The translations under genes were made by a program, and so were the position numbers. From assembly GCF_009601705.1 (NCBI RefSeq), contig NZ_CP045687.1, positions 2,082,001-2,146,000 on the forward strand: 64,000 nucleotides of DNA, given 5' to 3'. The notes under the pieces were generated by a model. The model saw only the letters and a program-made list of their open reading frames with translations. It was not told the origin of the DNA and did no database searches. This document shows, in pieces, positions 21,905 to 26,549 of this stretch. How positions within the stretch are numbered: the first letter of the stretch is position 1; each line of letters begins with the position of its first letter. The DNA is from Sulfolobus sp. E5-1-F (lineage in GTDB: Archaea > Thermoproteota > Thermoprotei_A > Sulfolobales > Sulfolobaceae).

Positions 21905-21944
21905 GAAGGTCAATTTTTAATTGGCCCCGATAGTTAATATTTTT

Positions 21945-22739
21945 ATGGATTATTGGTTAGCGGAAATTATAACTATAGGTAATGAAGTATTAAGTGGAAA
22001 GACTGTAAATACTAATGCTTCACATATCGGTCGTAGACTTACATCATTAGGGTTCACCGTGAGAAGAATAACTGTAATTATGGATGATGCAGACGAAATT
22101 GCATCAGCCTTCAGAGAGGCAATAGATAGGAGGCCGAAAGTCATAATATCTTCTGGTGGTCTTGGGCCTACATGGGATGACAAGACAGCGGAAGGGCTGG
22201 CGAAGGCATTGGGAGTTGATTTGGAGTTAAATAAAACAGCCTTTAATATGATTCTGGAAAAGTATACCAAAAGAAATATTCCTCTTACGGAAGAGAGGAA
22301 GAAAATGGCTTATATGCCGTATGGCGCTATTCCCGTTGAAAATAATGAGGGAATAGCTCCTGGGATTTATATTTATCACAATAACATTGATATATTAGCT
22401 GTACCAGGTGTACCTAGAGAGATGGAAAACGTATTAGAGAATTTTATAAACAAAATGCTAAGGAATAAGCCTAATTTGAAATATCTGGAGGACTTCATAT
22501 ACGTTGAGAACGTGATGGAATCTGCATTGGCACCATATGTTAAGGAACTGGTGAAAAAATATGATATTTATATAAAAACACATCCAAAAAGTTATGAGTT
22601 GTCACGCCCTATACTAGAAATACAGATAGCGGGAAGCGGGAGAGAGGAGGAAGAAATTAAAGCAAAAATAGAAAAAGTAAAAAATGAATTAGTAGATGTT
22701 ATAAAGAAATTAAACGGAATTATAAGAAATTCTTTATGA
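21945..22739 (+). CDS. CinA/MoCF-domain protein (YfaY-like)
   Basis: The 264-residue protein has the molybdopterin-binding MoaB/MogA-like fold of the CinA N-terminal domain. Seen are [17 protein letters not shown] at the start, [22 protein letters not shown] (shared by CinA and MogA, nucleotide binding) and VPGVPREME in the middle. Bacterial CinA N-terminal domains act as ADP-ribose or CoA pyrophosphatases in NAD turnover; the NMN deamidase domain is missing here. ATG 21945 is preferred to the upstream TTG at 21921, because that codon would add eight poorly conserved residues. It ends 20 bases inside the convergent hydrolase gene. Confidence 0.75.
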
Positions 22740-23481
22740 TATCAGATAACAATGACGGATTCTCGAAATTAAGAAAGTGACCATAGCCTTCTATAGTTTT
22801 CAATTCCACATTTTTCATGTTATTCTTAAATACATTTATATTTGTTATTAATCCGTCATAAGATCCGTACACTAGAAGAGTGTTAACGTTTATTTTCTTG
22901 AGTTCGTCTGAATAGTCTTTTGCCTTCAATAACCCTTCTACTGCGTTTTTATAACCTATTGGCGTTGTTTCTTCATATACTTCTAAAAGAGAATTCCATG
23001 CATGATAGTTACTTACTAATGTATCTGCAAACTCTTTATGTAATCTTCTATATTCTGCTAAGGCTCTTAATCCGAAATTCACTGCTATTCTTACATACTT
23101 CTCATAAACTTCTGGGGATGGTGCTTTATATAAAGCACCAACTAATATTAATTTCTCCACTGGATATTTTAAAGCATAGTCTATTGCAATTAAAGAACCT
23201 ATTGAATGTCCTACTAATATTGGTTTTTCTATACCTAGTTGAACTAATAAACTTCTTAAATCACTGGAGTGATCTTCGATACTATAAGGCGAATTTGGAG
23301 CTGAAGATCTGCCATGTCCTCTTAAGTCGTAGGCAACTACAGTACTATCTAATGTCAATTTTGGAATAACAAATTTCCAGCTCTTATAGCTTCCTGCTAA
23401 ATGGTGGATTAGTACAAGCGGTTTTCCATTCCCTCTTACTTCATAATATAGCCGAATATCATTTGTAATTATAAAGGGAAT
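22720..23481 (-). CDS. alpha/beta hydrolase with apparent AUU start
   Basis: Residues typical of an alpha/beta hydrolase are all present: the oxyanion strand [10 protein letters not shown], the YDLRGHGRS loop, the nucleophile elbow LVGHSIGSL, the acid in YGSYDGLI and the catalytic His in GYGHFLNFE. The first usual start codon in frame, TTG 23358, would remove the oxyanion strand. Upstream, the frame stays open to TAA at 23484-23482, and the first codon after that stop is ATT at 23481. A perfect Shine-Dalgarno sequence (GAGGTGA, 23494-23488) sits six bases before that ATT. I therefore place the start at ATT. It follows pheT by a few bases and is likely co-transcribed. The substrate (an ester or similar) is unknown. 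Confidence 0.7.
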
Positions 23482-23499
23482 TTAGTATCACCTCGTCTA

Positions 23500-25137
23500 T
23501 TATCTTTGATTGTGAAGTTTTTTAGCTATTTGTGAAATACATAATTCAGCAATTACTGTAGGATATTCGATACCAAATTTTATTAATATGTCAGGGTTAA
23601 CTTCACCTATTATTCCCATTTTTTCGTTCTCATAAACTATAGACGCTGAACGCCCTTCGATGAAAATGTTATTATTTTCTTCCTTATAAGTTACTTCCAA
23701 GCCTAAGGATTTTAGAATGTAATGGATTGGTGCTTGTATGTCCTCATAGCTTACCTCGTTGTCCATTATTGCATACGTAGCTCTTTTATCATTTCTAAAT
23801 CCTGTATCTGTAGAAGAGTCATAAATTACCACATCTCCAGTCTCAAAAACTCTAATAGGGAATTTCGCATGTTGATTTTTAGATAGGAAATCTAATATTA
23901 CCGGAATTAGCGAATCCCTTACTGCATTATATTCCTCAGTAATAGGATTGAGAATTTTTACATATTCATTACTGAGTAGCTTTCTATCTTTAATCAATAC
24001 GAAGTTAAATATTTCTACAAATCCTGCTCCGATACCTAGTTCTCTTATTTTCCTTTCTACCAATGTTATGTAATCATAAGAACCGTAATTAATTGAAATA
24101 TACTTATTAGGTTCTAGGTTATTATAACCGATACTCATTGCAATATCCTCTACTACGTCAATTTCATTTAGAATATCTACCCTATATTGAGGCACAGTTA
24201 CTCTTATAACTCCGTTTTCTATGTCGCAATTCATTCTCATCCTCATAATATGTTTACATATCTCTTCTTCACTAATTTTAATTCCTAAAACTCTCTTTAC
24301 ATAGTCCTCTCTAACGTTCTGAATCTTATGTATAAGCAAGGGAGAGGATGATTGAGAAGAATTAGTAGATTTTAAAACTTTTACTCTTCCTATAGTCCCT
24401 CCTGCTTCTGCTAAGTTTGAAACAATTATATCCAGAGTTTGTGCAACGGCTTCAAATGAAGTTCCAGTTACATCTATAAAGAAATCCTCTGTGCTTTCAT
24501 CCAGTTTGGTTTTATTAGAGTTGATTATTGGAGGTATACTCAATACTTCTCCATTTTCTTGGACTATAGCTGGGGATACTCCATTAGCTATTGAGATATT
24601 TCCATAAAGTTTTCCTTGCTCAGTTTTATCTAATATCTCGCTAATTGTGAGTTCTTTATTTCCATACAATGGAATAAATTTATAGGAAAGAGGAACTTCC
24701 TTATATTCTATCGTCTTCGTATCTACTTTCCTTAGATCATGTATACCTATTGCTACCTTTTTTCTCTTTCTTCCTATAGTACCATGAAGTTTTTCTTGAA
24801 ACTGTATCAATTCTTCAAGGTCTATTTTAGCGTTATAGACTACAGCAGCTAATGCATAAGGCCTTGTTCTAACATGATCGACAATCAGAGTATATTCCGT
24901 ATCTATAACATTATATTTTGCTTCGCCTAGCTCTTTTTCTAATAAACCTTTGATCGCTCTAGCTATTCCATCAGAGGAAAGTAGATCTAGTCGATCAGCG
25001 TTTATTTCTATTTCAATATTACTTTCATCGATAGGTTTCACTTCTGATTTTAAGTTAAACAATAGATCCTCTAGTTTCTGTTGACCAATACGTATTTTAT
25101 CTAATAATTTATATTTATTTAATATTATAGTTACCAT
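23500..25137 (-). CDS. pheT: phenylalanyl-tRNA synthetase beta subunit
   Basis: This is the 545-residue archaeal-type beta chain of the alpha2-beta2 Phe-tRNA synthetase. It carries the B3/B4 tRNA and editing module in the first half, B5 domains and a catalytic-like core near the end (FNFVLIKDRKLLSNEYVKILNPI). It lacks the extra anticodon-binding domains of the long bacterial form. The ATG at 25137 follows the pheS stop by five bases, so the pair is one operon. The alpha/beta hydrolase gene follows downstream. Confidence 0.93.
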   Translation of the reverse strand: MVTIILNKYKLLDKIRIGQQKLEDLLFNLKSEVKPIDESNIEIEINADRLDLLSSDGIARAIKGLLEKELGEAKYNVIDTEYTLIVDHVRTRPYALAAVVYNAKIDLEELIQFQEKLHGTIGRKRKKVAIGIHDLRKVDTKTIEYKEVPLSYKFIPLYGNKELTISEILDKTEQGKLYGNISIANGVSPAIVQENGEVLSIPPIINSNKTKLDESTEDFFIDVTGTSFEAVAQTLDIIVSNLAEAGGTIGRVKVLKSTNSSQSSSPLLIHKIQNVREDYVKRVLGIKISEEEICKHIMRMRMNCDIENGVIRVTVPQYRVDILNEIDVVEDIAMSIGYNNLEPNKYISINYGSYDYITLVERKIRELGIGAGFVEIFNFVLIKDRKLLSNEYVKILNPITEEYNAVRDSLIPVILDFLSKNQHAKFPIRVFETGDVVIYDSSTDTGFRNDKRATYAIMDNEVSYEDIQAPIHYILKSLGLEVTYKEENNNIFIEGRSASIVYENEKMGIIGEVNPDILIKFGIEYPTVIAELCISQIAKKLHNQR

Positions 25138-25142
25138 TTATA

Positions 25143-26549
25143 TCACTCTATTTTCACTTTTACATCTCTTATATATTCTATATTATTCGAGTAAAGTAGT
25201 CTAATATCACTAATGTTCAGAAAACTCATAGCAAGCCTTTCAATTCCGATTCCCCAGGCTCCAGCCATGCTGTGTATTCCAACCGAACTTAATATTTCTG
25301 GCCTTAACAGTCCGGCTCCACACATCTCCACCCAGCCTAATTTTTCTAGATATCCGTAAACTTCTACGCTAGGTTCTGTAAATGGGAAGTATGCTGGTTT
25401 AAATTTAATTTCTTTAATTCCTAACCTATAAAATATTTCCTTCAGAACACCTAATAAGTCTCTAAACGTGAAATTATCATCTATAACTACACCATCTAAT
25501 TGGTGAAACTCTATCAAATGAGTCGCGTCTATTGCATCTGGTCTGAAGACTTTACCTAAAGTAAACACTTTTTGAGGAGCCTTTGGTCTTGAGGCTAGGA
25601 GCCTCGCAGTAGTTGCAGTAGTTTGACTTCTTAACATTAACCTTAGCGTAATATCTTGTTTCCACTCATACTTCCAGAATTTCTCGTGAATCTCCTTTAC
25701 ATTATTTAACAACTCTTTATCCTCTATTTTTCCCAAACCTTCTACTGAAAAGCTATCGTGAATTTCCCTGGCGGGATGATCTTGCGGTTGGAATAGAAGG
25801 TCAAAATTATAAAATTCCATTTCAATATAACCTGTATTAATCTCTTTAAATCCTAAGCTAATCATAATATCCTTAACTTTTTCTAGGAATTCTTTAAAAT
25901 AGTGTTTTTTACTAATAGTATAATAGGGAGGAAATGCTTCTACATTATACTTTCTAAGTTTATACTTTTTCCACTCTCCACTAACTATCATTTCTCTATT
26001 AAGATTTGAAATCCCTACCTCAAACTCTTTAGGTTCTTTTATTAACTCTATGTTTACTACTTTCCTTTCCTTTTCTTCTATGAGCCCCCTTTTTTTAAGC
26101 AAGTTTATTGTATTAGTATCAGCTTTTTCGAGATTTGACAGAGCAAGATACTCAGGTGACGTGTAAGTTTTTACTTTAGGTATTACTTTTCCTTCTTTTA
26201 TCTCTATTAATCCTTTTCTCCTTGCCCAACTGATTGCAATATTAAAGTCCTCATCAAGAATATTTTTTATCTCGTTTAGATCTTTTTCTTGTCCATTTAA
26301 TGTATTTATTAAAATGTCTTCGGGCAATCCGCTTTCCTTTCTTTTCCTTCCCTCTTCAGTCAATATGTAGTATTTTTCAGATTTTATCTCTGTTTTTACA
26401 TACCCCTTTTCTCTCAGTAGCTCGATTAAACTTAATACCGAACTTTCTGGAATACCTATTTTTGTCGCAATTTCTAGAGAAGTTGCTCTTTTAAGATCCC
26501 TTAAAAAAAATAATATCTTAGCTTCGTTCTCACTTAACATCAATATCAC
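25143..26549 (-). CDS. pheS: phenylalanyl-tRNA synthetase alpha subunit
   Basis: This is the catalytic subunit, 468 residues, class II synthetase. The first 180 or so residues are winged-helix DNA/tRNA-binding modules ([22 protein letters not shown]). The class II core shows motif 1 near [15 protein letters not shown], motif 2 around [22 protein letters not shown] and motif 3 at [15 protein letters not shown]. The GTG start overlaps the stop of the preceding metallo-hydrolase as GTGA; the ATG at 26540 is an alternative. It charges tRNA-Phe together with PheT. Confidence 0.94.

Follow-up and report, generated by a model that had tools for sequence, protein, structure and literature searches.

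In bacteria, the gene infC, which encodes translation initiation factor IF3, starts at an AUU codon led by a Shine-Dalgarno (SD) sequence; this start is conserved between species, and the gene is autoregulated and lies near pheST. For Saccharolobus solfataricus, one study gives AUG, GUG, and UUG as the start codons (PMC7531240), and aIF1 is said to favour the rejection of non-canonical ones (PMC6237735, PMC8211752). AUG very rarely gives way to AUU, having done so in 1 of 61,358 reconstructed AUG starts (PMC5622118). A search of the open-access literature, subscription papers being outside its scope, returned no report of AUH starts (AUA, AUC, or AUU) in Sulfolobales, and curators may have assigned single AUH starts in database annotation. 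Non-canonical initiation itself is known; what would be new here is non-canonical initiation that is family-wide and found on essential genes.

The hydrolase gene downstream of pheT

The locus lies in a window, the whole stretch of DNA analysed, of 64,000 nucleotides from the thermoacidophilic archaeon Sulfolobus sp. E5-1-F (genome G000). Its features are listed below in window coordinates.

25143-26549, minus strand: pheS (Phe-tRNA synthetase alpha), with which the series of cistrons opens, identified from the initial annotation and the sequence
23500-25137, minus strand: pheT (Phe-tRNA synthetase beta), the upstream cistron, identified on the same two grounds
23487-23494, minus strand: SD sequence GAGGTGAT, complementary to the 16S 3' end GGATCACCTCA
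23482-23484, minus strand: in-frame TAA closing the hydrolase frame directly ahead of ATT
23479-23481, minus strand: ATT, putative AUU start of the hydrolase and first codon past the in-frame TAA, aligned with the ATG/TTG/GTG starts of orthologues
23356-23358, minus strand: TTG, the first canonical in-frame start (codon 42), from which the protein would lack its N-terminal strands and its oxyanion loop
22720-23481, minus strand: alpha/beta hydrolase coding sequence, 253 codons plus stop (TAA 22722-22720), Pfam PF00561

The pheT cistron ends with TAA 23502-23500, 18 bases 5' of ATT, and the in-frame stops TAA, TAG, TGA, and TAA exclude that the hydrolase of the window is made by read-through as a fusion to pheT. 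The initial annotation had placed an in-frame TAA at 23484-23482 followed by ATT at 23481, as well as a perfect SD, GAGGTGA, six bases ahead of ATT, and both readings were verified. The 16S gene of this genome ends in GGATCACCTCA, to which the hydrolase SD is an eight-base match. The six-base spacer between GAGGTGA and ATT equals 7 bases from the GGTG core, the modal distance of the genome, whose ATG, GTG, and TTG genes most often start 5-8 bases from this core. No ATG, GTG, or TTG occurs in the hydrolase frame for 41 codons after ATT, and near-cognates are found at codon 4 (AUA) and at codons 5 and 9 (AUU). On these sequence grounds, initiation would occur at exactly ATT 23479-23481, and the initiating residue would probably be Met, the Ile codon being read as initiator Met.

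The encoded protein matches Pfam PF00561 (Abhydrolase_1; E 7e-27, 95 bits, above the gathering score of 25.8). The nucleophile motif GHSIG (codons 91-95), the Asp in GSYDG (206-210), and the His in GYGHF (232-236) follow each other in the expected order, and by analogy with the family these residues probably form the catalytic triad. The oxyanion loop HHLAG covers codons 26-30 (23406-23392) and precedes the TTG of codon 42, in agreement with the previous claim that the conserved N-terminal strand and oxyanion region lie 5' of every canonical start. In alignments with solved alpha/beta hydrolases, the match covers the protein read from AUU as of residue 2 (5egn) or residue 6 (5a62), so that the segment 5' of TTG belongs to the fold. 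For codons 2-41, comparison with three close species yields a dN of 0.04-0.07, a dS of 0.5-1.0, and a dN/dS of about 0.05-0.11, and these codons are under strong purifying selection. With an intact gene and an N terminus selected as protein, it follows that the N-terminal segment is translated; the predicted N-terminal peptides after the initiator are PFIITNDIR and PFIITDDIR. The best NCBIfam match is TIGR02427 (PcaD, 3-oxoadipate enol-lactonase), with which the hydrolase has the fold and catalytic motifs in common, but its 113.2 bits are far under the curated cut-off of 255.85, too few to assign it to PcaD or to a substrate. A wider search of genome contigs for related loci reports only distant bacterial hydrolases. 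At its 3' end (22720-22739), the gene overlaps a convergent ORF (21921-22739, plus strand) by 20 bases.

Start codons of the orthologues

A genome search identifies the hydrolase orthologue throughout the genus (7 of 7 genomes) and in 25 of the 31 family genomes. At the aligned start position, the genus has ATT in G000, G003, and G004, ATC in G002, and ATG in G001, G005, and G006. A second genus has ATT in both of its genomes, G022 and G023, and the remaining family orthologues have TTG, GTG, or ATG there. The comparison with orthologues proposed in the initial annotation therefore places AUU or AUC at a conserved position in six species of two genera, and ATG, TTG, or GTG exactly there in the others. 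The refuting outcome named in the initial annotation, orthologues with a normal start elsewhere, was not found, the canonical starts falling at the codon 1 position.

In G000, G004, G022, and G023, no in-frame canonical start stands ahead of the conserved region. G002 and G003 have one in-frame GTG within the SD and one base fewer between SD and start, an indel that shifts all upstream frames, leaves the protein unchanged, and makes a conserved frameshift from an upstream start implausible. The GTG within the SD could serve as a start in these two genomes; as the start of the gene it was rejected, being in frame only there and having no SD of its own. In G022 and G023, the SD GGTGAT contains the TGA that ends pheT, and ATT follows six bases on, with the same six-base spacer. 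A maximum-likelihood tree resolves the AUH state into two changes, each forced by well-supported branches, so that on this tree the AUH start of the hydrolase arose independently at least twice. An SD of at least six bases is present in 6 of 6 AUH orthologues and in 3 of 15 ATG orthologues (Fisher p = 0.0015, on few and related sequences), which suggests that AUH is tolerated only where the SD is strong. Frame, orthologues, and selection together bear out the proposal of a hydrolase whose conserved N terminus can only be made from a start other than AUG, GUG, or UUG, with AUU at ideal SD distance.

AUH codons at Shine-Dalgarno distance in other genes

A total of 2.44 Mb of G000 was scanned for codons located at SD distance, with an SD of at least six bases and without a canonical start within 8 codons. 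AUU, AUC, and AUA account for 11 of the 24 such codons, versus 11.2% expected (binomial p = 2e-5). The same scan at distances 9-12 returns AUH for 0 of 22 codons, and scrambled SDs return 2.1 AUH on average, with 1 of 200 scrambles reaching 11. The resulting gene list, which is one of candidates and not an exhaustive census, comprises among its conserved genes FEN1 (ATA), TBP (ATC), uS3 (ATA), SucD (ACG), and a NusA-like protein (CTG), and an HSL-type arylesterase (ATT) turned up with a five-base SD. An ABC-transporter ORF (CAT 1183830), a dehydrogenase subunit (1483112), uS5 (1600549), and a mevalonate-type decarboxylase (2437210) were rejected as cases of non-canonical starts, a good downstream canonical start being apparent in each by sequence inspection. 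The principal candidates are given below by position on contig C1 of G000, with L-numbered positions in brackets.

2049804-2050856 (L180:9804-10856), minus strand: FEN1, candidate ATA start
1457920-1458513 (L150:17920-18513), plus strand: TBP (TATA-binding protein), candidate ATC start with SD
1594410-1595096 (L157:14410-15096), plus strand: uS3, candidate ATA start
535252 (L104:15252), plus strand: SucD, candidate ACG, or nearby AUA, start
565840 (L106:5840), plus strand: HSL-type arylesterase, ATT at the Met1 position of PDB 5l2p

FEN1 is the strongest case. In each of the 29 Sulfolobaceae genomes encoding it, a canonical start is absent ahead of the conserved GVDL, and the codon just before this motif is ATA in 25, ATC in 3, and ATT in 1. 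The SD is at distance 7 in 27 of the 29, the exceptions being the close relatives G020 and G021 with an SD-like GGGGGAT, and the AUA aligns with position 1 of TIGR03674. Among 229 genomes of the class Thermoproteia, the pattern ATA-GGN-GTN is found in 22 of the 31 family genomes and in 0 of the 198 others, versus 0 of 31 and 67 of 198, respectively, for ATG-GGN-GTN (Fisher p about 2e-21 on matched genomes, which are related and so non-independent; genomes matching neither pattern are uninformative). The predicted N-terminal peptide is GVDLADLVK. The FEN1 ATA overlaps a TAG of another frame, which may end the upstream gene. The solved S. solfataricus FEN1 (PDB 2izo, chain A) lacks GVDL, its first residue corresponding to about residue 6-7 of the protein read from AUA, and looks as though the annotated start was wrong.

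TBP has no ATG, GTG, or TTG before codon 17 and would start at ATC, ATA, or ATT with an SD; a canonical start is lacking in 20 of 30 family genomes, and the predicted N-terminal peptide is SNSAVSYKPIVN. In the genus, uS3 has ATA or ATT in four species and ATG in three, with SD and spacing identical throughout. Its predicted N-terminal peptide is PNIKRYFLEK, and the protein is nearly identical to a chain in 9fhl, which, following PMC11698992, we take to be the S. solfataricus ribosome. The next canonical start of the HSL-type arylesterase lies 96 codons downstream of ATT. From pattern matches only, as far as the relatives are concerned, SucD has ACG in seven genomes of two genera (five of the genus plus G022 and G023), a zinc protein of 74 residues has ATT at the same SD distance in eight genomes of two genera, and the CTG of the NusA-like protein is common to G000 and G004. 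The SucD start overlaps the apparent sucC end (GDAVRS stop).

Further frames were noted beside these candidates. An FAD-type protein with a GGGLAG motif (C1:1718471; L163:18471, plus strand) has no canonical start for 140 codons and exhibits ATC-ATC after TAG and TGAGG. In ftsY (C1:1902168; L173:2168, plus strand), the expected Met codon before FDKIKKAF is TGT, and an ATA two codons before it is too near the SD. A 221-residue frame beginning ATT-GTA (C1:1695286; L162:14624-15286, minus strand) has no canonical start in its first 60 codons and returned no Pfam match.

Competing explanations and known systems

The hydrolase is very probably translated from AUU, as one case of a Sulfolobaceae trait of SD-led AUH starts predicted from frame, spacing, and orthologues. 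Pairing of the GAGGUGAU SD would hold on the mRNA either the ribosome that has completed pheT or a new 30S subunit, and would thereby bring AUU into the P site. There, the CAU anticodon of Met-tRNAi would pair with A and U, the third-position mismatch presumably being tolerated, and the product would begin Met-Pro-Phe; G000 has two CAU tRNA-Met genes. In the SD-led, mostly internal cistrons of Sulfolobaceae, AUA, AUC, and AUU would be usable as starts, as would sometimes ACG or CUG, and AUH would be interchangeable with AUG over evolution, given a strong and correctly spaced SD. The published work on S. solfataricus cited in PMC6237735 and PMC8211752 counts against this reading.

Among the other explanations, an unlikely one that survives best assumes that selection maintains AUU because it is a weak start, limiting or regulating the third cistron, as in infC. 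The retention of AUU/AUC in six species, four from the genus and two from another, would fit, as would S. solfataricus aIF1, which is said to favour discrimination against non-canonical starts in vitro (quoted in PMC8211752). However, relatives of the same genus have ATG at the same position, the hydrolase SD is strong and not weak, and uS3, a stoichiometric ribosomal protein made in step with the others, also uses AUA/AUU, so that low expression is no necessary consequence of AUH. The suggestion of the initial annotation that AUU is a special, rare device limiting hydrolase expression thus finds no support, FEN1, TBP, uS3, SucD, and others in the family using the same start class. Autoregulation of the infC type finds no evidence, and the product is a hydrolase, not a factor discriminating against non-AUG starts.

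There is little probability that initiation occurs slightly downstream, at AUA 4, AUU 5, or AUU 9: these near-cognates are in frame and near codon 1, and the frame alone allows them, but they lie 16-31 bases from the SD core, where the peak is at 5-8, and it is codon 1 that alternates with ATG/TTG/GTG among orthologues; such a start would be non-canonical too. A short isoform of 212 residues from the TTG of codon 42 is still harder to credit. Although this TTG is the first canonical start in the frame, its product would lose the N-terminal strands and oxyanion loop that align with solved structures, together with codons 2-41, which are under strong purifying selection, and the canonical starts of orthologues sit 41 codons upstream. 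Finally, ATT and ATG differ by a single base, but a sequencing error, a strain-specific mutation, or a pseudogene is hardly conceivable given ATT/ATC in six species, a full-length frame, intact GHSIG and His motifs, and low dN/dS; the point mutation from ATG in one strain, previously named as the simple alternative, is excluded, AUU/AUC being fixed in six species of two genera.

Beyond translation of the hydrolase from AUU, it is reasonably likely that a relaxed start rule evolved in Sulfolobaceae, by which SD-led cistrons accept any AUN and some ACG or CUG, and that essential genes such as FEN1, TBP, uS3, and SucD inherited their starts of this kind from the ancestor of the family or of the genus. 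If this is true, a lineage-specific change may be expected in one of the factors aIF1, aIF1A, and aIF2, in the initiator tRNA, or in the P site of the ribosome, and N-terminal misannotation would be systematic in these model archaea. If AUA, AUC, and AUU are stable on essential genes with a strong SD, start selection would amount to SD placement plus two base pairs, and start-codon fidelity would become a problem of comparative genetics with natural variants in each direction. Gene finders may shorten or miss AUH-started proteins, as exemplified by the FEN1 chain 2izo, and textbook start-codon rules and many Sulfolobaceae annotations may be wrong.

Similar to the hydrolase, infC has an SD-led AUU start kept between species. 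In contrast, infC is a single, special, autoregulated gene, whereas the hydrolase has no link to initiation factors, its relatives switch to ATG, and the predicted trait extends to many genes unrelated to each other; that bacterial infC lies near pheST is a matter of coinciding gene order and no shared system. The pheT stop 18 bases ahead of ATT, and within the SD in G022 and G023, recalls archaeal termination-reinitiation coupling (PMC6728339), of which the known cases overlap as ATGA/TGATG. The SD-led distal cistrons of S. solfataricus, for which the accessible text of PMC7531240 and PMC11698992 gives AUG, GUG, and UUG starts only and leaves AUH unmentioned, resemble the hydrolase in being internal cistrons with standard spacing and an SD that matches the 16S 3' end.
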